From: Halichondria panicea
Taxonomy: Eukaryota > Porifera > Demospongiae > Suberitida > Halichondriidae
Direction of reading: 5' to 3'
NCBI RefSeq assembly: GCF_963675165.1
Contig: NC_087384.1
Span: 4,395,182 to 4,459,181, forward strand
DNA length: 64,000 nucleotides
This document shows positions 6,501 to 35,095 of the stretch, in pieces. The notes below the pieces were generated by a model. The model ran no database searches, was not told the origin of the DNA, and was given only the letters and a program-made list of their open reading frames with translations. Position 1 is the stretch's first letter, and every line of letters starts with the position of its first letter. The position numbers and the translations under genes were made by a program.

Positions 6501-9500
6501 GCAGAATCATCTTTGTCTTGAGGGCCTGGTAAGCCACAAAACACTACCATATAAAAATATAGATAACAATATGCATGTACACAAGTCTTTTCTTCTTAGA
6601 TATTATATACACTGAACTACAGATCCTGGAAGAATCAATTTTCTTCTTTCTTGAGGTCCTGGTAAGCCACATAATACAATAAATAATAACAACAATAGAT
6701 GCATGTAAATAAGTCTTGTCTTCTCAGTGACTTTATATAGATAAGCTAACTTTAATATAAAATTCATTATAGAAACTAATATAACACTCTAATACTTTTC
6801 AGCGAAAGCAAAAACATGGCGAGAGGCATTAGCACAGCGCCAGCTTGAACACTAGTTTTGCATAGAGAAGCTGGCCACGATCACAAAAGAGAACTAGTTT
6901 ATAGATTTAAGCCAGAATATCTCACAGTTTAGAGACTAAATCGTTTTCCTTGCTATACTAGCTAGCTAACAGCCTAACTGGAAGAGAAGGGGTGCTCAGC
7001 TGGACAATCAGATACATTTCTGTGTGATTTGTATACTTGACTCAGGCTGGTTGGGGGTACTCGAGCACCCGTAGCACCCCCCCTGGCTACGCCCCTGTCA
7101 GTATAGTGGTAGGTATGTATGTGCATGGAGTAATGTTATTGATTCTCGACTTCCTTCCGTACAACGGTCAAGGGTACCGGGTGGTGACACCCAACTACTG
7201 CAGCACTGCGTTTACCGCATAGATAGCCTCCATACAACAAGTTATTAATTACTATGTCTAGCGATATAGCTTTCGATTTAGACATTTGTCGCTAACTTTT
7301 TTAGGTACTGTACGTACACTCACCAGGCACATCATCTAGAGAGCTTATACTAGTTGCTACAACCAGAGCTGCACCAGCAGCGATAGAAATTGCAGCTATA
7401 GCAGCCATCGGGTTTATCCTGCGGAAAAAAGCCACTGCATATAGTTATTTTGTTGATATAGAACATCTTTCACACTTACACACGGTTGTCCTGATTTTCA
7501 CTCATTTCTTTCAATTGTCAAGCTAGATCTCTACTGCTCAGTAACTCTATGGATACAAATGTTGTTTTAAGTCAATGTGCACTGTCATCATACGTAATAT
7601 TATGTAACTATGCATTTTAGCTCAATGAATAAAATTTACTCTCATTCCAAATGGTGCACGTCATCATACATTATATTCGTAGTATAATTATAACTATGTA
7701 TTTTAGCTCAATGAATTCTCATTCAAAATGGTGCACATCATACGTAATTATATTCGTAGTATAACTATGCATTTTAGTTTTACGTAATTATATTCGTAGT
7801 ATAACTATGCATTTTAGTTCGATCGATAAATAACTCATGCATTCCAAATGGTGAAGTCATTTGCTATGTAATGATCTAGCTCGATTGGTATTAGATTTGC
7901 ACACGAGAGTAACTGGAAGTGTGTTATACAATGTAAACAACTGGTGTGTGCGTTACTTATAAAATTTACCATGTTGTAATTATAATAAAGTATAAACTAT
8001 GTGTAGAGTGCTCGATTCATGGAGGGTGTGTCTGGGGTGGAGTGTGTTGGCCCTCCCACTAGAGAGGATGTACAACGACAGTGTCAGCACATCCTACAGT
8101 GGGAATGGTTAGTCAGGCACATAATACAGTATCCCTGACACGTACTCCTTACCTTGATCTTCCAGCAATTTTAAGTCAATCTACACCTACGTAGAAAGAT
8201 TTTCAAATGCACATTGTATTTTCTTTGGTATTGTCGTCCATGTCAGAAGCAAATGTCGGTGTTAAATATTATTTCTCATTCTAGCGGTGGATTCCCTGGG
8301 TCTCAGCCTGTGTCAATGGACGTACGCAACATCTCTTTACTACACAAAAAGCCATACAGAGTCTCCTGCAAAGCCGACGGGACCAGGTGATGCTGTCATG
8401 TGACCATTGCTTGTGTGTGACTTGTTGTGTGCAGGTATATGATGTACATTCGAGGGCGTGGAGAAGTGTACATGTTGAATCGCTCCGATGCTGTATTTCG
8501 AGTGCCCTACCTCTCGTTTCCCTCAGGCCGACATCTTGGAGAGCACCTCACAGAAACGTTGTTGGATGGGGTGAGTCTATCGTGGTACCATAGGGCACCT
8601 CATGTATATAATAAATTAACACTATAATTTATGTATTATAGTTGGCAAATTATTTATTTGTTGTCAAAACCAAGTGACTCCCCTGGCATTTAGTGCTCAA
8701 TCATTCTACAACACAATCATATTTGACTCATAGCAAAGATGCGAAATATCAGCTATAGTTAGCTAGCCAATAAATAGATCCGTATCACTGAGTGTTGTTG
8801 CAGGAGATGGTGATTGCTAAAAACAAAGACGGCTCCTCTAAACCTTGCTACCTCATTTACGACATTATTCAGTTCGAGGTGTGTTTTCTTATCACACCAT
8901 ACTGATAGTATCCACTAGCGCTGTTGGTGGACGTGTTTATTGATTGAATTACCTGTAGAGCAGCACTGAGGTGGCACTGCGTGATCACAATGTACGCATG
9001 GTCTTTGTCAGTAAAGAGGTGGTGGAACCAAGAGACAAAGCAGTGAGTTAGTACACTATAGCTACCTCCTGATCTGTATGATCAGTTTGCTCTGAGAATA
9101 ATATTATTACCACTCAAAGTTAGCTTCTCTTGCATAGCTGCACTGTGCTTCTCTCGATGTCATTACTGAGCCATTTAGTGTTCAGGCAGTGAGGTTCTGG
9201 AATGTCTCTACCAGTAACATTGGAGGTAAGAGCATTGTTTTTGTGAGTGAGAAATTCTGAAACAGGCAGCATCATATTTTTTAACCGATCATACACTGCC
9301 AACATGCATGTACTCAGACGTTTGAGGATTACATGAAGACTCTTACATATGAGCATGATGGTTACATATTCACTCCTGCTACTGCCGTAAGTATGTGCTG
9401 CTGTATATAATAGTATAATGTATGCTATGCTGTGTAATGCCTTGTGTAGCCCTATGTTGCAGGACAGTGCATGAACTGTCTAAAGTGGAAGCCTGCCAAG

Positions 9501-10112: not shown

Positions 10113-10204
10113 AATTAATCAGCCATAATATTTTTCAAATAATGATTGTCAGATTAGTGGGTGGACCTCGCTGAGCATGCGCAATAATAGCAACCACGTG
10201 TTGC
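10113..10204 (+). promoter_or_regulatory. Compact intergenic region with NRF1-like and E-box motifs
   Basis: Only 92 bases separate the capping-enzyme stop from the DDX55 ATG. They hold gagcatgcgcaa (NRF1-like) and ccacgtg (E-box). It probably serves both as 3' end of the first gene and promoter of the second. Motif calls are by eye. Confidence 0.4.
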
Positions 10205-12938
10205 ATGGCCAAGAAAGAAAGCTATATGATGGCAGTTCCACTTTCGAATAAACCCTGGAGGGATTTGAAGCCTCCCCTGTCCCAGACGTGTCATGATGGA
10301 CTGAAGAGACTAGGATTCACCTCCATGACCCCAGTACAAAGTGCTACAATCCCTCTGTTCATGAGCAACAAGGATGTGGCTGTGGAAGCTGTCACAGGCT
10401 CTGGGAAGACTCTTGCATTTGTTATACCCATCATTGAAGTATTAACTAAACGAAAAAAGTCTTGGACGAAGAATGAAGTTGGCGCATTGGTAGTCACGCC
10501 TACTCGAGAGCTTGCGACCCAAATCGCTGGTATGTTTGAGCCATTTATGCCCAGCGATCTATCACTGTGTTCGTTGATTGGAGGTAGAGACTTGCAAGCT
10601 GATATGGACTGTATCAATGGACAAGGTGCCCAAATTATTGTTGCCACTCCTGGACGTCTTATTGACCTTCTCCAGCGAGCCGAAAGCAACCTTTCCTCAG
10701 CGTTGCGACTCCTGGAGGTGTTAGTATTGGATGAAGCAGATCGCTTACTGGAGTTAGGATTTGAGAAAAGTATCAATACGATCCTCAGTTATGTACCAAA
10801 ACAGAGAAGGACTGGTCTTTTTTCTGCAACTCTCACTCAAGACGTGAAAGCTCTTATGCGCGCTGGAATGAGAAATCCAGTCACCATAACTGTTCGCGAC
10901 AAACAGAGCTCTTCAGACTTAACTCCCACTCCAAAATCACTGTGCAATTACTATTTGATTTGCTCTCCTGTAGCCAAGTACTCAAAACTGCTGTCTTTCC
11001 TAAGTCGGTATAATGATAAGAAGATTCTTGTGTTCTTTGCCACTTGTGCTGGTGTAAGTTACTTCAGTTGTATCACTCGACGGTTATGTAGCTCATTGAA
11101 AGTGTTGGCGTTACATGGAAAAATGCAAGCAAGACGACAAAAACTGTTCACCGAATTCGCATCGCTATCACGAGGAGTTTTGATGTGTACAGATGTGCTT
11201 GCCAGAGGTGTTGATTTCCCCGCCGTGGATTGGGTAGTTCAATTTGATCCCCCTTCATCAGCTAAGGCGTTTGTTCATCGCTGTGGACGTACAGCCAGAA
11301 TGGGGAATGTTGGCAGTGCTCTGGTAATGCTCTTGCCAACAGAGAAAGATTATGTCGAGTTCTTGGAGTTAAATCAACACGTTGTTTTGGAGGAGTTCCA
11401 GAGTGAGCTGGATGTGAGTGAAGAGTATGTCCGTAGAGGGAGAGAGATTGCCGCCAAAGAGAGGTTAGCTTGTTTGATTCTGATGTTTCTCTGTTCTTAT
11501 AATGTAAGCCAAACCTCTATTTTTGTCTTTTAGGGAGATGTTTGAAAAAGGAAAAAGAGCGCTAGTCTCGTTTGTTCACTTTTATTCCAAACACGAGTGC
11601 AGGCTCATCTTTCAAGCAAAAGGTAAGGTTTGTGTATAGGCATGCCCTCATAATACATGTATTTTGACCCAACAGAGCTTGATTTAGTGTCACTAGCTCA
11701 AGGCTTTGCCCTCCCCCATCTCCCTAAAATGCCAGAGCTCAAGGGCAGAGATGTGTCTGCGTTCACTCCTCACACCCGCCCCCACTCAGAGATACCTTAC
11801 AAGGACAAGGTCAGAGAGAAAGAACGGAAGGCCAAGATAAAAAGACAAGCAGGTCAATGTCGTCACTGAGCTCAGAGCTATCCTTACTGCATTTTTTTAT
11901 TTAATGGCTTACCTAAGGATGTTTGTCTTTATTGTGCCTCGGTGCGCATGCACAAGCGAGGTATACGGTAGTGTCTGTGTAGACTGCTACAGCTGCTCAA
12001 GGACTAGTCATGTTTTCTTGGATTTTAATTCGTGGATTTACAAAATAATGCTTTGTTCTCGAGTTATGCCTAGTTTTGCTTACTTGGCATGCCATTGCAG
12101 CCTTTTCAGAAGAGCACGTAGCCAAACTTGTTTACCAAGTGTTGCTACTCTACTTAGTAGTTAGCTCTGCACTAGACCGCTATCGCTATTGGTAGCTGCA
12201 AGAGTGAAAAGAGAGCTGCAAGGCTCTGCTAATGCAGCCATTAATTTTAGACTTAAACTTTTGGCATTGATTGTTTTTAACAACAATCATGGTCGATTAT
12301 TACACACTCTTTGAGTTTGCATGCAGAAAAACAAAATTGTTCATCATGTGTATAAAAGCTTTATGTTATGTAGCTTTGGCATCTCCACCGAGGCATCAGC
12401 ACACCTGCAGTGCTTTCATTAGTTAAAGCACCTGTAAATCATATTTGGGTCTACTTCATAATTGTAAGGACTTGTTTCTTTACATGTACTTTCAAGTATA
12501 ATTTGCTGGCATGTAATCTGTAAAGGCCGGTGTATTTTCATTAATGTATCTGTAGCATATCAATTAGCGAGAATTAACACATTTACCTGTTTTTCACATT
12601 GGTTGTTGTAGATGATGCTCTCGTGAAAAAAAAACCAAAACCAAAACGAAAGGTATAGATAGATATGAAATGTTGCGTCATTAGTATGATTTTGTTTTGT
12701 TTTAGGTAAGGATAAGAACTCCAGAAAGAGAGCTCACAAAGGAGCGCAAAAGAAAGCGTAGAAGTGAGCAAGGTTTTTCGGAAGGAGAGCTTGATGAGTT
12801 ATCGAGAGAAGCTCGACTACTGAAGAAGTTCAAAGCTGGAAAGGTGGTCCCATGCAATTTCCATTTGGCTTTTTTAACACTTTGCATTCTTTTTTACAGA
12901 TTACAAAAGAAGAAATGGAAGTTTCACTAGATGGATAG
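10205..12938 (+). CDS. DDX55: ATP-dependent RNA helicase DDX55 (yeast Spb4 orthologue)
   Basis: DEAD-box helicase of the nucleolus needed for large ribosomal subunit maturation. Exons: 10205-11463, 11534-11622, 11676-11852, 12612-12652, 12706-12843, 12900-12938; 580 residues, close to the human length (about 600). Motifs in order: Q motif (TPVQSATIPLF), Walker A AVTGSGKT near residue 63, PTRELA, TPGR, DEADRLL near 175, SAT, ARGVDFP, HRCGRTARMG. After the helicase core come the SPB4-type segment (SLAQGFALPHLPKMPEL) and a Lys/Arg-rich tail with ARLLKKFKAGKITKEE, both characteristic of DDX55. A second in-frame ATG lies at 10229. The intron 11853-12611 contains a repeat element. The long first exon contrasts with the fragmented neighbours. 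Confidence 0.95.
11934..12420 (+). mobile_element. Dispersed repeat family A, copy 1 (about 490-545 bp)
   Basis: Begins tgcctcggtgcgcatgcaca, then agcgaggtatacgg, and ends ccaccgaggcatcagcaca followed by gtgctttcatt. The ends form a short inverted repeat (gcctcggtg and caccgaggc). Other copies are at 27701-28247 (same strand) and 42630-43155 (opposite strand). It sits inside a DDX55 intron. Confidence 0.75.
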
Positions 12939-21813: not shown

Positions 21814-24800
21814 ATGAACATACACACTGCTGCCAAGGTTGGTGATTTGAGTGATGTGCGAAATGCCATCAAGAGGGGAGATGATGTCAACAGTGTGGAT
21901 AAAGTAAGCTTGTTTTAATATGGGTACCGGGTATGTAGAGCTGAAAGTCTGTTTTTGCTAGCTTGATAGTCGCCTGTCAGAACAGTGGCCGGCTCTGCTC
22001 AGCTAGTTGCGTGACTCCATGTTTTACTCACATTTAATCCCTGTCTACTTCTACGTAGGTACGTATAGGTTATGCTGGCATAATGGGCACCTTTATAACA
22101 ATCATGCTCATAGAGCATTCACCTTGTGCGTTGAGCTTCATTGCATTACACAGCGGCAAAACGGATAAATAACTTTTACCGTAATGTACCATAAGCGTTC
22201 TAATTATAGAACCAGCCTCGGTTAGGACGCCCTCTTTTTTAATGCCCATGATTATACCACCATATAAAATCAAATTTTTTCATACATTAATTATTTTTTG
22301 CTGGTTCTATAATTAGAACGATTACGGTATATGGGCGATTACGGTATATGGGGAATGATGAATGATTAATAATTAAGGTCGTGAATCTATAAAGCAATTG
22401 ATTAGAAAACAGTGTTTTTTTGTCGTAGCGGGTAATTAATTTTCGTAGGGTAAAATAATTATTCGTTATTTTCATGACCTCCACACACGCCTAGTTTACC
22501 GGAACGCATGCAATGCAGTGCAGGCAATGAAGGTGATTGAAATTTTTTTACTCATGAAAATCAACGTGAACAGTGTGTTCAGACTGTTTTTGTAACAGAG
22601 ATCTATAGTTTATATACCCCATTTGGCTTCTGTATCATAGCAACTATACGTAGGTAGGACAGTCCCAGCCCTAGAGCACATTCCTCATAAACTCCCTTGC
22701 CTTGAGCACATAGTCTCATGAATCAGCTGCACCTCTCAGAGAGGAACGTCTGAGCACTATTTACGTAAAGTCATGGCACAATGGAATGTATTACGACGCT
22801 GTAAATATGACAAAACCATAAAATGAGATTACATGCTTAACCACATCATTGCTTGCTGCTCAACCGCACGCAAAGTTTCATTATTATTATGCTGTCTCCT
22901 ATTCAAGTCACCTGATACTTGTGAGTACTATCATTGGTCACTTTGGAATTCCTCCGTGGCCCATGAACTCAAATAAAGCCTCTTTACAACAGAGAGCTTA
23001 TTGTACAGAACAAAATACCATTGAGGGAGCTAGGCTCTAGCTGCTCCAGGAAACTCTACAGAGATAATTATCTAAACACAAACTATGGTAACTAAAGAGG
23101 CATAATTATATAATTAAGACATACTGGTTATTTTTGAGGCACTAAATGTTCCAGGTTTTTAAGGATTGACCTCGATCCTCAAAAATTTAGTGCTTCAAAA
23201 ATTGGTTTACTTCCGGTATTGAAACCTCTACTCGTAACTGTAGGGTGTGGTCATTTGAACCACTATCCTCAAATAAAATGTGCAAAATGTTTAGTTTGAG
23301 CAATCTGTGAAAATTTAGTGCCTCGAAAATAACCGGTAACTGATACAGTTCGTTTTTTGAGGCTGGTAGCTACCAAGGTGAGGTAGCTAAATGGCTATAC
23401 ATATAGTTTATAAGGATTTTGTTTTTATTCTCGTGGGTATATACAATAATTATATAACACTATTGTCACTACAATAACCATCCTTGGCCTCGGCCTCAAA
23501 GGTTTATTACATAAAATAATGTTGATGTAGTAGACAATAACTATTGTACTTTTGTGTGTGAGTGAATGACGTCAGATACTATAATGCCCATCCCCCTTTA
23601 TTCTGTGTTGTCAACAGTTACTGAATGCTCTCACTCTTGTAGTATGGGTGGACTCCACTCCGGTGGGCAGCCAATAGAGGTCACACTGACTGTGTGAGAG
23701 AGCTGCTTTCATATGGAGCCATTGTGGACCTGGCTGACAAGGTGAGTATCTGATACTACCTTAACCCTTTATTAATAAGTACTTGCTATTGACTCAATAT
23801 TGAGTCAGAAACGCGTTCCTTGCACTGCGTAAATCAGAAATGTCACATAGAGCGCACGAAGTTGCTACATGTAGTAAAACATAATTTTTCCCCTGTGTTT
23901 TTGGCGCGCCTCCTCACCCAAACGTGTATGGAAGGGAGGCAAAATCCCCCCTTAACTGGGGTTCAAGAGACGTCGTTTGGCAGGTAGCTGAGGTTGTACG
24001 CTACAATTTGGTACCTAGTCTCACAGGCCATACTTGGAATTGATTTTGATACCACATAATTATGATAAATATAGCCAGGTTTTCGTGTCGAGTTCTGGAA
24101 TTTCGGAACGATTGAATTTCAAGAATTTCCACACAAATATATACCGCAAGCATTCAAAAGGGGTGTCGTTTACAATCGTCCGCCATTGCTAAAAGTTGAC
24201 AAGCTACACTGAGTGTACTGTGTTGGTTGTACAATCAGTCACTCTAAAGGATCAAGACTACCATTGTATAATTGCTTTCTTGAATATCTAGCTGATGGAT
24301 AGCTGCAGTCAAAAGTGAAAAGTAAGAACAGGGAGCCCAAAAGTTGGCAGAACTATGGTTTTATTTCGGGCAGAAAAGTATGGAGGGCCATTTGTCAAAA
24401 ATGGGTACTACATGTACATGTACATGTTGATTTCAAAACATGAGTAGGGAAGACACGTTCAGAGAACGCGTATAGGAAACGTGAGTTAGTAGGGAAGACA
24501 CATTCAGAGAACGCGTATAGGAAACGCGAGTAGGGAAGACACATTCAGAGAACGCGTATAGGAAACGTGAGTTAGTAGGGAATACACATTCAGAGAGCGC
24601 GTATAGGAAACGCGAGTAGGGAAGACATGTTCAGAGAACGCATATAGGGAGCGCGTGTAGCCTACACGCGTCTAGGAAACAACTAATACAAATGTCTTCT
24701 AAATGGCAATACATAGATCAATATGATTGTTGAGAGTTTCTGCTTCTGCCATGTTTTCTCGATGTTTTCTATGTACCCTAAATAGAGCCACTGTAAATTA

Positions 24801-27800
24801 CTTAGAGTGGAAACCATGCCCCTTTCTTTGGGAAAGAGAAAGAGGTGTAGTTTCCAGTATATGTACTCTACAAACGCGTGTAATGTTTCCTCTAGCCGTG
24901 TGTAGCCTATACACGTGTTTTCTAGACATGTTTACCTAGACACGTGTAGCCTACACGCGTTTCCTAGACGCATGTAGGCTACATGCGCTCCATATACGTG
25001 TTCTCTGAACGTGTTTTCCCTACTCGCGGTTTGAAATCAACATGTACATGTAGTACCTATTTTTGTCACAAATGGCCCTCCATAGAAAAGGCCAAGACCC
25101 TGAACATGTGATATGGAAACAGAAATCAGTGCAATAGACAACATTTTTCTTGTATGTGCAGCTCTAGAGATGTAAATACAATTATTGTGTATGGATAATC
25201 CATTGTCTTGGTGGTCTTTATGTATGTTCATTTGCATGGTAGCTTCTTCCACTTTCAGTCGCTGTATAGTGTCTATACTTCTTCTGTGGGGAAAGGACTC
25301 GAGGTTTTTGTACTGCAATATTGCGGTTAATGCAGCCATAACAGGATGTAATAAATTAAATTCCACTGCGACACAAAAAGCTTGCTATAGTCACCATACG
25401 TGGTATCAGTCTTCAAGTATGGCCCGCGAGACTATTTGCTACCAACCTCATCATGTCCTGATATAGGTGTTGTCCTGCAGTTCCAATAGTACTTTGAGGT
25501 CACCAAAAATATCAAGAATCTCCTGTACATTCTGACCATTATGTGGAAAGGGGAGGGGTTTCACTAGGGTGTTGGGTGTGGCTACTAATGAGGAAAAAGG
25601 GGGCTAAAATTGAAGACAGTGGGTGGGAGCTTAATTGTTGCAGAAATGTGCACGTGAATCGGGCGAGGTAATAGAGATAGAAATGTTAGCGAAAATCATT
25701 ATTAAAAATTTTTAGCAGGTAAATGGTCAAGGTGACATATTTTGGCAGGTATTAATTTTGCGAATAAGAACGCAAAAATTTGTACTCGCAGATAATTGGA
25801 AATTGCGAGTAATTAAAAGTTAAAGTGAGAAGCACTGTCGTACATATATAGATTAGTATCCTTTTCCCCTTATCTTGCTTTTTGTGTGTATGTTGACAAA
25901 CTGGGCTGCTGGAGTACAGTTGTCTTGTGTTTACCTATACGTTTTTAATTTAACATAAGGCTGCAATAATTATGATCATGGAGTAAAGTTTCTATAATTA
26001 TATGTAGCGCATCACGAATAGTTTTATTTTTTGCTGGTTGCCATTTCTCTTCCATTACTGTATTTATCTGTGTTGTCAAACGTTTACTGTACTGAATTAT
26101 GCTCTCACTCTTGTAGGATGGGTGGACTCCACTCCGGTGGGCAGTCAGTGAAGCTCGCACTGACTGTGTTAGAGAGCTGCTTTCCTATGGAGCCTTGGTG
26201 GACCTGGCTAACAAGGTGCATGTCCTTAATTTGTTCGTACACTCATTAATTTGGCCGGAATTTTAACACTGAGCACCATGCACCAGCGTTTAATAATTGT
26301 TCTGATAATGGGGCGAGCGAACTGTGACTCACCGATCCAGACTGGGTGTATCTGAAATAAATGTTTTCAGTTTTTGCCAATCACGCTCTTTTACTTTATA
26401 TATTTATGGTCTATCACACAGATATGTTGTACTGGGTTTTCTCATTAACTTGTAGGATGGGTGTACTCCACTCCGGTGGGCCGCCTACCTAGGTCACACT
26501 GACTGCATTAGAGAGCTGCTCTCTTATGGAGCCGTGGTGGACCTGGCTAACGAGGTGAGTATCTGATACAAACTAATTGATGTGTCTATAGGCAGCATGT
26601 TGATGCATGACCACCTCAGTGATGGTTGTGTAGTGTCTTTATGAGATCCCTAAAGGCGCTAACATTAAGGTTACGATGCAGTGTTTGCTCATGAATTATT
26701 GTATTTTTTGAGACATTGTTTCTATTATTTATGTGCGTAATACTGAAGAACTATTACAGCACTTGCTAGCAAAGGAGGTACACATGCAGGAGCAATAGTA
26801 CAGTTGATTAGCTGACTCAGCATACATAAACCTAGGCCTACATGTGCAATCAAGCCTAATTGCTCCTGCCTGTTGTACATCCTCTGGCTTGCTAGCTACA
26901 TACATCAGTACGCTAACTAGATGGCACAATCGTGACTGCAAATATTGGGTGGTCATAGCCAATTTCAGTCGTCAAATAGTAGAGAAAGAAAGACTCAAAC
27001 AAGAAGTACACAGTGACCTACGTGTTTATAGTATACTTGAGGGCAGCTCGAAGAGTTCTTGCTTCTATCTATCTACAGACTGAAGAAAATGCCTACAATT
27101 AGTAAATTCTTCACGAGCTAACTCGATGGCTGTTAAGAAATTCTTTTGAGCCGCCCTGCCCCTTTCCTCGATTAAATAGATTGCCTTGCTGGTGAAGTGT
27201 GTATAGATTACGACTAGTGTATACAGTCAAGACAGCTTGATTTACTACTGATTTAGTATCCCCTTGGTTTATGCCCCTGAACACTGGCGAGCCATTATTA
27301 CTTGTCTTAATTGCTTATTTGTGTGTGTGTGTTGATGAACTCGGCTGCATAATTTTCCTCGATAATACTTTCTTGCGAGCTGTTTAAAAATAAGGTAACA
27401 CATCACGGTTAGTTGCATTTTCTCAGTGCCAATCAAGTTCCTTAATTTACTTTATTTATGGTCTATCATGCACGCAGATGTGTTGTCAAAAGTTACTTTA
27501 TGCTCTCACTGTTGTAGGTTGGGCATACTCGTGCACTCTGGTGGGCAGCCAGTGAAGGTCACACTGACTGTGTCAGAGAGCTATTCTCCTATGGAGCCGT
27601 GGTGGATTTGGCTGACAAGGTGAGCATCTAATTACTAAACCGATGTATCTATAGGCATGCTTGTAACTATCAAATATAAAATCATTTGGCACTGGTTATT
27701 ATGCCTCGGTGCGCATGCGCAAGCGAGGTATACGGTAGTGTGTTTGTGTGTCTGTGTTTGTGTGTCTGTGTCTGTGTCTGTGTATCTGTGTAGACTGCTA

Positions 27801-30800
27801 CAGCTGCTCAAGGATCAATCAAGTGCAAGTAAGAGTTTCTATAGGCTTCTAATCATGTTTACTTCGATTTAATTCGTGGATTTGCAAAATAATGCTTCGT
27901 TCTCGTAGTTCTGCTTACTTGGAATGCCATTGCAGCCTTTTCAGAAGAGTGCATAGCAAAACTTGTCTATGGAGTGTTGATACTCTACTTAGTAGTTAGC
28001 TCTGCACTAGAACGCTAGCTATTGGTAGCTGCAAGAGTGAGAAGAGAGCTGCAAGGCTCTGCTAGTGCAGCCATTCTCATTTAGACTTGACTTTTGGCAT
28101 AGATTGTTTTTAAAATCATGGTTACTCACTCTTTAAGTTTCCCTGCATGCATATTAATGTTGATCATGTGTGTATTATGCTAGTAGCTTTATGTTATGAC
28201 ATGTAGCTTTAACACCTCGAGGCATCAGCGCCCACGGTGCTTTCATTTAAATGGTAGTAATTTGCATGTAATAATGATACTAGATGCAATAGATGAGAAT
28301 TTAGGAAGACAGAGTAGATCTAAGACAGAGTGTACGTATGAGAATATATAAGAATCGGGTAGACGATAACTCGGTAGACAGAGTAGCTGAGGTTCTTCTC
28401 TAGTCCGATGTATTTCTCGATAACTGGCCGCTCTCTTTGAGCAATGATGATTCGAGGCCAACCCAGAGCCCTCAAAGAGTTACGTAAAGGTGGCAACTAA
28501 CAAAAGTCGAGCCTCGAGAGGTCATGTGCCTCGTGAAAGCGATCGCAAATCTGAGAAAAATCCTGTGGCCAAGACTGTATTGGAAACTGATGGCAGAATA
28601 ATAATCATGACGATGCTTGTACGAGGAGGCAAAAACCTTACTTACTTCCTTACTTACATGTAGAGCCAGTCACTCATTTGCGGTGAAGTGCGATATTAGT
28701 GTAATTTTAGTATATCTATGCATGTGAACGTTTTTTGAATCTCATAACACACAATTATAGAAAAATAGCTACAAACTAGCTGTGCCGTCAGTTTTCAGAT
28801 AATTATGATCCTTCTCTGCAGAGGTATAAATAGGGGAAAATACGTGAAAATGCTAAAAGGTAGTGCCATGTTGTGCAGTAGTAAGTAAACATAATTATTT
28901 TCGCAAGTATTATAATTAATTTTTCTGCTATTTCTACTATTTCTGCGAATGTGAGTAAAGTCGTAAAATCGCAAAATGTGTACTCGTGGATAATAATTGG
29001 AAAATGCAGTAATTACAAACGCTATGAGTAACATTAATTTCACAACTTTAGTACCAGCAGTGAAATTGCAGAAAAATCTACCTGTGAAAATATGTCACCT
29101 TAGGGTAATAATTAGTATAGTATGGCTAAGAGTGATTGCACGAGTAGCCATACTATTGATTGTTAATCGTTTGTGATGCAGTTTTAAGGACAGTTTTAGC
29201 TGCAGTTTCAGTAAAAAAAATTAGCCGCGGCCGTTATTCGAACGTGCTGTCGTCAAGGACGACGTGCAATTACTGATACACGATTAATCACTGTACGAAT
29301 CCCAGTGAATAATAGGACAACATGCGATTATTGTTATAATCATGCATGTACATTTCCCTGTGCATTTAAACCGACGTGCGTATCAGCCGGTTTTAATTTT
29401 ATATGTACTGTATGTGCTTGTGTTCTCACTTATGGATGTGGTAGAGCAGTGCAGTGAAAGCCTGCATTGTTTATTCAATGCACATTCATATTGTGTTGTC
29501 ACTGTCCACTCTTGCAGGATGGGCACACTCCACTCATGATGGCAGCCTGCTATGGATATGAAGATACTGTCAAGGAGCTTCTCTCATTGGGGGCTTCAGT
29601 TAACATCATTAATAGAGTGAGCACATGTACTTCATAGAGTATGCTGCATAGTTATACGAAAATTACGTGCTAATTGTATAACCGACCTCTGTGCAATTAC
29701 CATTGTCAGTATGTTCTGTCACATGCTATATACACACGAGACTACTTTACCACTTACAATGTACATGTACATCTGTGCATCATTACAGGATGGAGAGACT
29801 GCTCTGATGGTGGCCAATAAATCAGATCGCTCTAACCAACCAACAATTAAGCTTCTAGAAGAAGCTGAATCACATGTGAGTCTGTACACCTCAATAAGCT
29901 ACTCTGATCATGGGTGTTTTAGTTCATGCCGATTGAAGTACATGTACATTTATCAAAACATATTTTTCATTTACTTTGCCTATTTCAGTTTATTTTCACT
30001 GATAAGCTAATACTTTTCTTTGGAAAATGAGCTGATACATTAATACTGTAGATGAAATACCATTACATGTCTCTGCCCTCCCCCACAAATGCTCAGCCAC
30101 GTCTGCAGTCTGTTCAGGTTCTCCCCAAAAACTGGACTGCTGTCACTGACGCAGAAACGTGAGTTGACTATTGCACAGTTGAGTCACTAGCTTTATGAAT
30201 GTGAGTGTACTTTAGGGAGAAGCCAGTCTACCGGAACAATGCAACAAGGGAAACCCTTTCCACACCACCTGGATGTAAGTGTGTATGTTCTTCTGCCGTA
30301 TCCAGCACATGGTTCTGTGTGTTTTACCTACTGTGTAGATCCCTTGCACCAAATCTCCGCACACCCTGATGTCATTTTCTATGGCGAGCCTCAAAAGAAG
30401 GTGTTCACCCCCAGTGGTGGACATGCCGACTTCGACAATGGAGTTGAAGTGACTGTTCCAGCTAATGCTGTCTCAGCAGGAACCTCTGTGGGCATTAAAG
30501 TCCAACCCAGCCTTGCCTCCAGAGATGTGTTTTTGATGCCTGAAGGCATTCAATCTGCAAGTCCATCTTACTTGATCTCTGGTGAAGGTCTAAACGGAGA
30601 AGTGACCCTGAGCATGGAGCATCATGTACGAGTGTCCACCCAAGAAGAAGCTGATGACCTCCTCTTTCTCCAAGCTGACTCGTACCCCAAGAGATCTGGA
30701 TCAAAGAGTGTGTATGAGTACCAGAGGGTACAAGAGGGCAGGTCAGAGTTCACTCTAGGGGGGAACACAGGGAGACTGACCAGATGTCTGTCAAAGAAGC

Positions 30801-32742
30801 AGTTCTTTAAAGTTGGTCATCAAGCTCGTGTTGGAGGTGAGTGTATAAAGAAATGTGCTTGTAGTGTGAGTGGCATGCTTTTGTTGCAGGCCGGGATGCT
30901 GCCAGCCAGTCTGATGACCCCACAGAACCTGAGAGTCCTAACCTCTATACTGTCAGAGTTTACCAGTCTCCTCCACAGACAGTTGGGGACAGAATAGCCA
31001 TCATTGCAGTCTGTCTCTTTGGGAGCTTCTACGCTAAGGTATGGATCGAATATATAGATCTAGTGTATAATATTCTATTCTTACGGCTTTAAATATTATT
31101 ATAGTTTCTGGAGAAACTTGATAAAGTGGTAATCCCACGAGACTATCCTGAGGTGTCTTCAAAGTCAATTTACAGGACGACTCAAGGATCACTGAAGTTT
31201 ATTGATATGTGTGCCACTCTCAGCATTCACCCAGTGCAGGGATGGTCTGTGGAACCAGACAAGGAATTGGTAAAATGTAAAATTGGACACACTCTTAAAA
31301 TCACATTCCCTTCATTTCTTAGATCTCGCGTAGTGAAGTGGATCAACCTGGGATGGAGAAGTTCAGAGCCGATTATCTCCACGACTACCCTCCCAGGATA
31401 ATCTGCAGGTTCTTCCCTGAGGAGAATGCTCCCAAGAGAACCATCTGTACCATCTCCTTGTCTGGACTGCTTCCCCAGGTCAAAGTTCACTTATCATTGA
31501 AAGCACCCATCCCTACAATTACTGTGGATACTACTAAACTACAGGTATAGTTACGTTTGTACATTACATTAAGTTTGTACAGTGTAGCCTCTTGAAATGG
31601 TGTATAGTGGGTGCATTTGTATAACTTAAGTTTGCCTCTTAGATAGAAGGTAACTTCTTTGTTGACTCGACATAAATAACAGACAAGTTGGTGCAGGAGG
31701 TTTTGTCCGATATTGGGAGGTTATACCATAATTATATTATAAGGTTACACACCCCTTTTCATTGACAGGAAATGCAATATAATTATATCTAGAGTAAGTA
31801 ACCGATCTAGAGTAAGTAACCGATCTTTGCCAGATACCTATAATCGGCGGCTATTGCACGAAGCACAAGACAATTTGCAAAGCTAACTACATGGACCTAC
31901 AGATGAGTAAGAAAGTAACAGCTCCAAAAATTTGGAAAGAATAACTCGCTTGCAGACGGAGTGGTGGTCATGAGAAGTGAGGTGCCGAATTGATCAATTG
32001 TCGTCAGTGAGACATTTATCTCCGTCTTTGCACGCTTACTAAGCACTGAAACTACCAGCACTAAACAATACTTCTTGGCACAACTCTAACTAGTGAGCAC
32101 TACTTGCAGGCAAAGCAGTGTTAGCTATAGATCGAGCCCCACCCAGTAGAGCTGACGGAAATTTTACAAAAAAATAATGCTGATTCAGCAATAATTGTGC
32201 ACATAATCTTCAGTGCGGCCTGGAATCGAGGCTAATCCCAGTTTAATTATTGCTGACTGTGCACAATTATTGCTGAATCAGCATTATTTTTTGCAAAATT
32301 TTCGTCAGCTCTACTGGGTAGGGCTCTATCTGCAGCTAACGCTGCTTTGCCTGCAAGTATATAGTGCTCACTAGTTAGAGTTGTGCCAAGAAGTATTGTT
32401 TAGTGCTGGTAGTTTCAGTGCTTAGTAAGCGTGCAAACAGAGATAAAATAATTATGTCTCACTGACGACAATTGATCAATTCGGCACCTCACTTCTCATG
32501 ACCACCACTCCGTCCGCAAGCGAGTTATGTTTTCCAAATTTTTGGGAGCTGTTACTTTCTTACCTATCTGTAGGTCCATGTAGTTAGTTTTGTGCAAAAT
32601 CGTCTTGTGCTTCGAGCAATAGCCGCCGATTATAGGTATCTGGCGAAGATCGGTTACTTACTCTACATGCTTCTATCCTCTGGCTTCTATCCTTGAAGAT
32701 CCATTAATTACCCAAATGTATTTTAATAAGGTACTGGTATGT

Positions 32743-32826
<84 letters not shown>

Positions 32827-35095
32827 TGTGTGACAACAATGTCTTAGTGCGCAAAGATGATGAATGTGTAGCAGCAGGTAGGGGATGCCATTTTTCGATA
32901 TAGATTTAAAACCACACCCTTCGTCCGTTATAAGAGGTTAATTCTGTATCTTTGTTCAAGGCTTGTCTGGAGTTTAAAAGTGTCCGCTATTCGGGGTTGC
33001 AAGTACACTATAGTTAGATAGTAAAAGCAGTTGGTACAAAGCATGCTGTCCGCTTTTTAGAGAGTCCGTTATAAGAGGTTCCACCGTAGCACGTATATAT
33101 GTACTTAATGCAAACTATTGTACAGTGTATTTATCATATTTCTTTAGGAGGCCACTGATGAGTTGAGAAGGTCTGCCCTGGCAGTGAGTGACACACAACT
33201 TGGCTTTACTGTGCATAGTGTACATGTAGTGTCTCTGATGGAGAGAATGACTACTTCTCTGAGGTACGACGCATTTGTGTGGAAGTCTGATTATTGCTTT
33301 TTTTCTAAAGGTCATCTTCTCTGAGCGAGCTGGCAGCCCACACTGATTCCATACAGACAGAGATAGCGTCTGTCCTTGTAGTAACCAAGAGGGTTGTCGA
33401 GGAGTGCACAGTACAGAGCATCAGTGAGAACATTGAAGCCGGTCTCTCTAAGATGGAAGCTTTATCTCACCAGCTTTGTCTGGTAACCAAGGTCAAACTC
33501 AGACACTGTCAAAGTGAGAACATGTGCTTATGATATCGTTGGGGGTTCCTCTCATTCTCAATGATACAGACCAATTAGAGGAGACAGCTGCTCTTGTTGA
33601 CCTGGTGGAAAATGGAGCTAATCTGTTGAGAGCTGTAGACTGTCTACTCAGGGACATTCATACACTCAGTGGAGTCAGTGGTGAGTGTCCGATGTCAGTC
33701 ATGCTGTGTTTTTATAGTGCATTGTTAGGCCACGACTTATTACCCGAGGCGCGTGGGTGGCTACGGGTATAGTAGTCGTTTGGTTTATCTGTAATATTTG
33801 AGTCTACTCCACCTGGATGTCATAGCGCTGCATTTACAGTATGGATATATAGCCTTCACACAACAAGTTATTGGTTTTTAAAGTTTCAGATTTCGATGTT
33901 AAAGCTTCATTGTCGAAACGAACTTGCACGTTGGCTGCATGGCTAGCTAGCTAGCTACTCACGGCCTTTATTCGAGGTACACATGTTCCCGTCACATGAA
34001 CAAGTAAAAAAAACCATGAGGGAAGGAGTATTACTATTTTGTTGTTGTTACTATAACTCAGTGAGAGCACAATAAAACTATGAAAACAAGGAACCTATGA
34101 CCTGGCTTTAGGTTTCCTATGGTCTAATGGCTATTAGGCAGGCTAGCTGGCTTCCAATAAGCCAGTAGCCTCGATTTTAGGTAGCATACTGCGGCCTAGG
34201 CTACCTAAAATCGAGAATACAAACTTAACCGTGGCTATTAACCTGTCATGCGGTATAAAATGCTACTTTTATTATGCAAAATTAAGCCCATTCTGACTCG
34301 AAATTAAAATTACACCCACTCATTAAAGTCTTTCTGTCTGTATCTGAGGCCTGCCAGCTCTTGAAATACAATGAATACGTCAATATGGTAATGCATGGAT
34401 AAAGTAGCTAGGTATATAAAGAAAAGTACACAAGTCAAGAATCTGCATCAGAAAGTTATAGTGACATGCAAATAGTATCAATTATTGGATCTAGCTATAT
34501 CTAATGTTCAGAGCTAACCAGCTTACACAAAGAAACTGCTTGACAACTGCTCACTGACAAATGCTGGTGGGCGTACTCTCGAGGAATTAGCCTAATGCAG
34601 GAACTCTCACTCAAAAGCGGGGGTAGGCGTAATCTTGGTAGAGTATGATAATCGTTTCCACTTCCTCCTACTGTGCCATGTACATGCATGACTGTATTGT
34701 ACGTCTATTTGTTCACAGTACACATATTTTTTACTCCAGTGTGTGGGCGTACCATGCCTTAGCGTTTCCTCTCTCCTGCAGGTAACTCTGGCTACAGTGT
34801 GCTGGTGAGCTGCAGTGAGAAGATGGTCCAGTCACTCTCCCAAGAACCCAAAGCTGTAGCTGTTTATTTGCTATCAGTCGGACTCATCACTGAGCGTGTA
34901 TTGCAAGAAACTAACCAGCTAAACGAGATTAATGCTGACAAAGCCACCAGACTGTACACGGCCCTGCTGGGTGTGGTCAAACACCACCCCCACAAGTACC
35001 ACGAGTTTGTCTCCACTCTCAGACTCAACCCACTACACACTGACTTGGTCAGAGAATTAGATAGCAAGTACATGTATAGTTTGTCAACAACATAA
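21814..35095 (+). CDS. Ankyrin-repeat / ZU5 / CARD-like adaptor protein
   Basis: Exons: 21814-21903, 23643-23741, 26117-26215, 26456-26554, 27518-27619, 29518-29616, 29789-29875, 30097-30158, 30216-30274, 30339-30836, 30890-31038, 31105-31269, 31323-31544, 33148-33263, 33311-33513, 33570-33680, 34782-35095; all in frame, 857 residues. Residues 1-225 are ankyrin repeats, one per exon, with phase-0 junctions (DGWTPLRWA, TDCVRELLSYGA, VDLADK). Residues about 265-430 are a ZU5 domain (FTPSGGHADFDNGVEVTVPA, LMPEGIQSASPSYLISGE). A beta-rich region that could be UPA-like follows (RIICRFFPEE, TICTISLSGLLPQVKVHL). A helical linker leads to a CARD-like end (AVAVYLLSVGLITERVLQET, DKATRLYTALLGVV, HEFVSTLRLN). 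ZU5-containing proteins such as UNC5, PIDD and ankyrins use this module for autoinhibition or assembly; function here is inferred only as a cytosolic signalling adaptor. The start is the first ATG before an ankyrin-like segment. Confidence 0.85.
22190..22345. mobile_element. Inverted repeat around 'tctaattatagaaccagc'
   Basis: gcgttctaattatagaacca (about 22194) pairs with ggttctataattagaacg (about 22303), with outer taccgtaatgtacc and ggtatatgg-type partners. Lies in the first intron of the ankyrin gene. Confidence 0.6.
23128..23337. mobile_element. MITE with 'ggttatttttgaggcactaa' ends
   Basis: Left end actggttatttttgaggcac with taaat; right end atttagtgcctcgaaaataa with ccggt. About 210 bp. 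Confidence 0.75.
24376..25085. mobile_element. Palindromic element with internal tandem repeats
   Basis: The outer ends, tatggagggccatttgtcaa and the inverse tttgtcacaaatggccctcc, continue into pairing tgtacatgttgatttcaaa blocks. Inside, 24435-24660 is a tandem array of a unit of about 40-46 bp (gtagggaagaca, cattcagagaacgcgtatag, gaaacg). The right arm (about 24895-25030) holds related blocks in reverse complement (ttctctgaacgtgttttccc). Lies between ankyrin exons. Confidence 0.75.
26772..26885. mobile_element. Short foldback element sharing ends with the 2.6 kb MITE
   Basis: ggaggtacacatgcaggagc with aatag pairs with aattgctcctgcctgttgta with catcctc. A close relative lies at 63017-63158 (tgactcagcat core in both). 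Confidence 0.7.
27701..28247 (+). mobile_element. Dispersed repeat family A, copy 2
   Basis: Starts atgcctcggtgcgcatgcgc and agcgaggtatacggtagtg; includes a (tg/tc)tgtgtctg microsatellite; ends cctcgaggcatcagcgc and ggtgctttcatt. Lies in an ankyrin-gene intron. Confidence 0.75.
28248..29517. other. Intron between ankyrin exons, A/T-rich, no gene seen
   Basis: Contains a stretch near 28900-29105 related to 25700-25800 (ggtgacatat-type end, gcgaat, tgtactcg(c/t)(a/g)gataat), suggesting another diverged repeat. No coding exon recognised. Confidence 0.4.
31797..32667. mobile_element. Near-perfect palindrome of about 870 bp
   Basis: The left arm starting agtaagtaaccgatct at 31812 is matched by agatcggttacttact at the right end. 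The arms, about 400 bp each, agree almost base for base: gccgattataggtatctggc, tcatgaccaccactccgtc, gtgctcactagttagagttg. The short centre near 32210-32250 holds a cggcctggaatcgaggct core. No credible ORF. Lies in the intron before exon 14 of the ankyrin-ZU5 gene. Confidence 0.85.
32744..32830. repeat. (TG)n-(CGTG)n microsatellite
   Basis: About 50 bases of TG dinucleotides pass directly into tandem cgtg tetranucleotides. Confidence 0.95.
33681..34781. other. Last intron of the ankyrin-ZU5 gene
   Basis: About 1.1 kb. It holds the inverted pair cctcgattttaggtagc / gctacctaaaatcgag (about 34168-34215), related to the recurrent cgaggct core. No exon seen. Confidence 0.5.

Follow-up and report, generated by a model that had tools for sequence, protein, structure and literature searches.

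The locus analysed here raises the question of whether a sponge gene that joins ankyrin repeats to a ZU5 domain and a death-fold end encodes a lone adaptor or one member of a larger set, and of what role such a protein might play. The window, by which is meant the whole stretch of 64,000 nucleotides under analysis (C8:4395182-4459181), was considered within a searched genome of 131.5 Mb in 39 contigs.

A seventeen-exon gene and its paralog

An earlier note on this DNA had joined seventeen exons in frame into a single protein running from ankyrin repeats through ZU5 to a CARD-like end. Rebuilding the model from splice sites upheld that structure, with 17 exons between 21814 and 35095 on the + strand joining in frame to encode 853 aa and a stop codon, and GT..AG at all 16 of the 16 introns. 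The predicted protein is ordered as ankyrin (ANK) repeats, a weak WW-like motif, ZU5, a UPA-like region, a linker and a CARD, distributed over the exons as follows.

Exon 1, 21814..21903, + strand: aa 1-30, the start codon (in-frame stops precede it) followed by an N-terminal half ankyrin repeat
Exon 2, 23643..23741, + strand: ankyrin repeat, 33 aa, phase 0-0
Exon 3, 26117..26215, + strand: ankyrin repeat
Exon 4, 26456..26554, + strand: ankyrin repeat
Exon 5, 27518..27619, + strand: ankyrin repeat, 34 aa
Exon 6, 29518..29616, + strand: ankyrin repeat
Exon 7, 29789..29875, + strand: last, partial ankyrin repeat, aa 197-225; paralog exon in L012
Exon 8, 30109..30158, + strand: first half of the weak WW-like motif (LPKNW)
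Exon 9, 30216..30274, + strand: second half of the WW-like motif
Exon 10, 30339..30836, + strand: ZU5, aa 262-427, with no HFS or SFS autocleavage motif
Exon 11, 30890..31038, + strand: connector and first part of the UPA-like region
Exon 12, 31105..31269, + strand: UPA-like region; like its L072 counterpart, begins in phase 0 with FLxxF
Exon 13, 31323..31544, + strand: UPA-like region, with EVD...YPPR common to L072 and L073
Exon 14, 33148..33263, + strand: helical linker
Exon 15, 33311..33513, + strand: helical linker
Exon 16, 33570..33680, + strand: helical linker, ending in phase 1; the L037/L105 alignment stops in the following intron
Exon 17, 34782..35095, + strand: CARD and stop codon, entered in phase 1

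The domain order is borne out by Pfam, by profile comparison and by a paralog, L012, whose exons run through the same series as those of the window gene, from ankyrin and WW-like exons to ZU5, UPA-like exons, linker and CARD. Twenty further copies, picked mostly for having no CARD lying close, were mapped by module. All 20 contain a ZU5 exon, three UPA-like exons and both of linker exons 14-15; linker exon 16 was matched in 16 (L030, L032, L039 and L040 are without it); in L030 and L040 there are linker matches beyond the exon for Death B, one of two Death-type ends. Because L012 has the same order and the body exons recur in the 20 further copies, the gene model is more than a product of chance.

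The ankyrin part of the protein is clear (PF12796, E 3.5e-46) and comprises about seven repeats, followed by one ZU5 and the CARD end. The WW-like motif falls below the cut-off (PF00397, E 0.14, 12.7 bits), and is also seen in L012, L080 and L081 (L008 being the same locus as L081). Over the linker, the helical families Vinculin and Hpt gave weak matches below the cut-off. Pfam returned no NACHT match in the window protein, which lacks the NACHT or NB-ARC domain by which an NLR is recognised.

It should be noted that the introns hold repeats of their own. A foldback inverted repeat of ~860 bp in intron 13 (31805-32668), with five arm pairs 89-97% complementary and then a (GT)n run, is perhaps a small mobile element, and intron 2 contains by eye a minisatellite-like array at 24440-25030 with the unit GTAGGGAAGACACATTCAGAGAACGCG. 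Elsewhere in the window, positions 10175-11533 form a DEAD-box helicase-like open frame, likewise judged by eye.

Identity of the ZU5, UPA-like and CARD regions

With PF00791, the window ZU5 stays under the cut-off of 21 bits, at 19.4 for the complete protein and 20.9 for exons 10-13. In hhalign, the family ZU5 profile matched an alignment of L069, L072, L073 and L076 at Prob 97 and E 7e-11 over 140 columns; L069 and L072 were the two of these that were scanned, and both lie over the ZU5 cut-off. Among eight single sequences tried, the values of Prob were 92 for L076, 71 for L073, 62 for L072, 39 for L071 and 0.3 for L069, and there was no match to the PIDD-like L074 (Prob 0.15). The ZU5-UPA part found no match in the PDB with phmmer, and none of the three PDB matches of the ZU5 profile is a ZU5. 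A single-sequence AlphaFold model of exon 10 reached a pLDDT of 42, too poor for the model to be usable. Judged from the profile alignments, the exon 10 domain is clearly homologous to accepted ZU5 domains. Within the comparison set, L072 combines its ZU5 with a Death match below the cut-off (E 0.0022) and, by eye, a membrane segment, and looks like an UNC5-type receptor; L074 (C17:5475700-5479900) has a ZU5 over the cut-off with two HFS sites, and LRR and Death matches below it (Death E 0.015), and is a PIDD1-like gene.

The UPA-like region proposed behind the ZU5 by the earlier note fared less evenly. It found no match in Pfam and, in an alignment search, none in the PDB; PF17217 had no match in the genome, an absence that says little because this profile was silent in control genomes too. 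What remains of the proposal is a weak profile match to L072/L073 (hhalign Prob 21, E 0.001, set against E 0.06-0.5 in five column shuffles) and shared intron positions, every boundary of the UPA-like exons having a matching phase 0 boundary in L072, L073 or both. The window gene, L072 and L073 also have FLxxF and then EVD...YPPR after the ZU5 in common. No hhalign match was obtained between the UPA-like region and the PIDD-like UPA, and L072/L073 do not match the PIDD-like UPA either. The weak profile match and the shared intron positions hint that the region after the ZU5 may be a UPA.

The earlier note took known ZU5 proteins to end usually in a death domain, which needs correcting in that CARD8 and NLRP1 already show a CARD behind ZU5-UPA in the available text of PMC3210808. 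The window protein resembles these FIIND-CARD inflammasome sensors in that its C-terminal part runs from ZU5 through a UPA-like region to a CARD, and it could accordingly be pictured as a self-cleaving FIIND-type sensor activated by N-terminal loss. The same source gives the cleavage motif as SFS in CARD8 and NLRP1 and HFS in PIDD. However, neither HFS nor SFS occurs in any of 12 family bodies, window included, and the genome's PIDD-like gene has its two HFS; the dipeptide FS is found in 3 of the 12 (L034, L037 and L047), never at the ZU5 end, where all 12 have FFK(I/V)G. With no HFS or SFS and this ZU5 end, autocleavage of the window protein was rejected, and a FIIND-type mode of activation is very improbable. 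Unlike CARD8 and NLRP1, the window protein also carries N-terminal ankyrin repeats, and its family runs to ~40 copies in which the CARD is exchanged with Death. UNC5 and PIDD1 share with it a ZU5 and a UPA or UPA-like region followed by a death-fold domain, but the window protein has no transmembrane or LRR part and no HFS, and a CARD replaces Death.

Exon 17 alone has no PF00619 match in Pfam, let alone one above the curated cut-off. A genome search with this exon yielded 182 candidates, of which the best 150 were scored and 106 are listed at E < 0.001, a few of them being pieces of one exon. By eye, its relatives account for 8 of the 43 exons of the genome that pass PF00619, two of the eight passing only with in-frame neighbours, and 4 of 23 aligned CARD members matched PF00619 alone at E up to 1. 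For comparison, a profile was made of 22 members, leaving out L013 from the 23-member alignment. This profile matched ten Pfam CARD exons of the genome at hhalign Prob 94.3 and E 1e-7 over 75 columns (Prob 92.9 and E 3.8e-7 with the parts reversed), whereas its Prob against nine Death exons was 0.2 and that of the genome CARDs against Death was 2.6; a close subset of six members reached Prob 56 and E 1.1e-4 against the genome CARDs. By profile comparison and intermediates, and not by Pfam alone, the exon 17 domain is identified as a CARD, in agreement with the CARD-like C-terminus first suggested for it.

The structural searches stand against this assignment. In the PDB, the CARD profile matched HEPN toxins best (E 0.02 and 0.06), and chains bearing a CARD came at E 0.066-1.1; the matches after the toxins include, at E 0.07, a zebrafish guanylate-binding-like chain and ICEBERG, the former matched, in our reading, through its CARD. 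The single-sequence AlphaFold model of exon 17 is all-helical with five helices, but its pLDDT of 54 is too poor for it to be usable, and a fold search with it gave 25 weak PDB matches, none of them a death fold. As a separate observation, L013:4084-5235 is a single frame of 384 aa with no Pfam match and an N-terminal distant relative of the window CARD (27% identity), and 12 of the listed CARD-search matches on C1 have frames of 383-385 aa.

Family copies and their C-terminal ends

The window gene is not the lone adaptor that had been supposed. A search with the ZU5-UPA part found at least 40 ZU5 exon copies in the genome: C3 has 29 and C6 seven, and C8 (the window), C14, C16 and C27 have a single copy each. 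The linkers, like the UPA-like regions, come in two types. The nearest C-terminal domain downstream of the 40 listed copies is a CARD in 15, Death A in 15 and Death B in six, with none within 5.5 kb in four, in a census that used the best 150 of 182 CARD candidates and the best 150 of 565 Death candidates for the at least 40 copies. A fragment of 28 residues is among the 15 CARDs. Of the four copies without an end inside 5.5 kb, two have a CARD at 8.6 and 9.1 kb, and the C27 copy, also among the four, begins 1.6 kb from a contig end; the C14 copy has its own Death-like exon (E 0.035). Death A matched the Death exons of the genome at Prob 93, as against 1 for the CARDs, and five Death A exons exceed the Death cut-off of Pfam, with the one scanned alone under it (19.3 vs 22.6). 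The exons for CARD, Death A and Death B are alike entered in phase 1, the Death phases being read from sequence. A Death A exon sought in the window was not found, the search giving one 17-residue chance match (E 0.62).

In L042, L043, L044 and L046, Death B looks internal, with a donor site and then a second linker copy, and some family members may carry a longer tail after Death B.

The distribution of ends was mapped on a tree of 36 ZU5 exons, 34 of them labelled (15 Death A, 13 CARD, 6 Death B) and two, L011 and L032, unlabelled; the rows L099 and L103 have a stop inside the stretch used. The tree needs at least 12 label changes, eight for CARD vs Death, and the mean for shuffled labels is 15.2. 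As 8 of 200 shuffles were as low, the end label is somewhat clustered on the tree, and some of the discordance could stem from gene conversion of ZU5 exons. Sister pairs with CARD vs Death ends are L012/L030, L039/L046 and L037/L095, and those with Death A vs Death B ends are L035/L043 and L044/L045.

Four sister pairs were aligned. Between L037 (Death A, at C3:7738867) and L105 (CARD, at C3:7786409, which is also the locus of L095), identity is 97.4% over 2,565 bp, exons and introns included; the match starts with the ZU5 exon, spans the linker and enters intron 16, and the alignment ends after a further 57-bp patch at 88%. L035 and L043 are 97.2% identical over ~2,340 bp before one continues into Death A and the other into Death B. 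In the L039/L046 pair, L046 alone carries an additional block made up of linker and Death B, and the break between L012 and L030 is less clean than in the other pairs. An exchange of last exons fits what is seen in L037/L105 and L035/L043; for the other pairs, a block may have been gained or lost, the body may have undergone gene conversion, or last exons may be used alternatively.

The same processes, that is, alternative last exons, gain or loss of a whole linker-Death block or gene conversion of body exons, may be responsible for the different ends more broadly, with no last-exon replacement between genes. Death A and a CARD exon do lie a few kb apart at some loci, C6:1654345, C6:1686316 and C3:5597375 being examples, the L039/L046 difference is just such a block, and ZU5 exons are near-identical in places. 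Alternative ends are, however, at odds with the first pair, as in the stretches read L105 has no Death exon and L037 has no CARD exon, and as their identity continues through exons and introns alike up to intron 16. This explanation is given appreciable but minority weight, and replacement of last exons between genes is retained as the reading that fits L037/L105 and L035/L043.

Ankyrin surface diversity and candidate function

The ankyrin exons were drawn from the window gene, L012 and eight upstream stretches, L079-L086 (L008 overlaps L081). Of 38 exons found, 7 were dropped as last-type repeats and 31 inner repeats from ten genes were used, three of them from the window. Register was set through the consensus GxTPL, and position 26 was assumed to be a sixth binding-surface position. 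The other five, repeat positions 2, 3, 5, 13 and 14, are our reading of the DARPin variable positions 45, 46, 48, 56 and 57, and of their equivalents 33 and 66 residues further along, as listed in the accessible part of PMC10484509. The ratio dN/dS was 3.02 at the six positions (bootstrap over genes 1.55-6.55) vs 0.76 at other positions, and 4.13 vs 0.83 when five were used, figures that describe rather than test because pairs among the 31 repeats are not independent. The corresponding values were 0.34 for ZU5 exons (11 rows) and 0.30 for CARD exons (9 rows). Random position sets were as high as the surface in 83 of 20,000 draws for dN and 1,172 of 20,000 for the ratio. Because the exon finder fixes six positions, the test was repeated on the other 27, and random sets were then as high in 87 (dN) and 927 (ratio) draws. 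Positions 7 and 8 are variable too, though outside the DARPin set. The earlier note, correct in its gene model, domain order and CARD-like end, had missed this surface diversity along with the WW-like motif, the Death-ended paralogs and the exchange of ends.

A similar kind of pattern is described for the ANK repeats of Podospora NLRs in the available text of PMC4986451, and the fungal NLRs resemble the window family in their alike ANK repeats, positive selection on the concave binding surface and exchange of effector domains; in contrast, the window family has no NACHT or NB-ARC, and its output consists of animal death folds. Within sponges, Amphimedon has an expanded set of genes with many architectures in which TRADD-N and death folds are joined to ankyrin repeats (PMC8195603, in the portion available). 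These genes are like the window family in being a sponge expansion that couples death folds to ankyrin repeats, but their death folds are N-terminal with TRADD-N, whereas that of the window protein is C-terminal behind ZU5. NACHT-Zu5 and NACHT-Ank genes are reported from early animals including sponges in the accessible text of PMC12909245. In the literature searched, which left most subscription papers outside it, no account was found of a family in which ANK and ZU5 precede either a CARD or a Death end. The window family may be a new combination among ZU5 death-fold proteins, in which ZU5-UPA-CARD itself is known.

Canonical ankyrins (ANK1-3) also bring together ankyrin repeats, ZU5, a UPA-like region and a death-fold end, and the function of their death domain is described as uncertain in the available part of PMC5135030. 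The window protein might by analogy be a cytoskeletal or trafficking scaffold in which the death fold serves only as a structural or binding module. The full ankyrin arrangement is ANK-ZU5-ZU5-UPA-Death, which that part of the source reports as not found in nine sponge species. Unlike it, the window protein has about seven ANK repeats rather than 24, one ZU5 rather than two, a helical linker and a CARD end, and it belongs to a diversifying family of at least 40 copies with a diversified ANK surface, all of which makes a scaffold an improbable role.

The reading that we favour, if by a modest degree of confidence and from sequence comparison, is that of an intracellular sensor-adaptor with an ANK sensor, a ZU5-UPA-like module and a CARD output, one of ~40 copies with a diversifying surface and an exchangeable CARD or Death end. 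An immune or death-signalling role for the window gene is plausible. The short ankyrin solenoid would bind a protein ligand, and the ZU5-UPA-like module and helical linker would hold or position the C-terminal CARD in a form of autoinhibition; ligand binding might then release the CARD to nucleate homotypic CARD assemblies, leading to a caspase or NF-kB type response. Across the family, the sensor surface would diversify while last exons swap the output among CARD and the two Death types.

One possible partner in such assemblies would be a CARD-NACHT gene from the subfamily of the window CARD. On C1, a CARD 41% identical to the window CARD precedes, by ~1.4 kb and on the same strand, a NACHT domain (E 7.9e-22) in a 963-aa frame with no LRR match, and we infer that the CARD and the NACHT frame form one gene. 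Another CARD relative lies near an ankyrin exon on C12. None of the 33 caspase matches listed is within 10 kb of the CARD relatives listed, the nearest, by eye, being at 38 kb.

A bolder extension of the sensor-adaptor reading, which we hold tentatively and as distinctly less probable, is that the family constitutes a combinatorial innate recognition repertoire, with dozens of ankyrin receptors whose ligand surface is diversified by exon homogenisation and selection, and whose CARD or Death output is switched via last exons. Such a repertoire would be a non-NLR counterpart of NLR repertoires, possibly used in allorecognition. If the sensor-adaptor reading is right, the sponge would possess, beside its NACHT genes, a large set of ankyrin-based intracellular sensors with swappable signalling ends, and a defined family of loci would be at hand for testing how sensors are connected to death folds and how sponges recognise self or microbes. 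Allorecognition in place of pathogen sensing, with the ANK surfaces reading polymorphic self proteins to trigger rejection death, would suit genes that are multicopy, diversifying and exchangeable, and sponge allo-incompatibility with cell death is noted in the accessible text of PMC8195603; this role is rather unlikely, if less so than that of a scaffold.

Two further sequence features were observed in the genome. Sites of the form CGASYAF, which we take to be a silicatein signature, occur three times within 11 kb on C2 and a fourth time on C6, and the reversed pattern gave 0 matches, a result in keeping with DNA from a sponge. 2A-like sequences have been linked to sea urchin NLRs. Such signal sequences are the subject of PMC4981915, a source available in part. 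Here, the 2A-like peptides GDVETNPGP and GDVESNPGP stand in frames just upstream of CARDs of the window subfamily (L014:640-1182 on the minus strand; L009:1265-1489 and 8347-8667).
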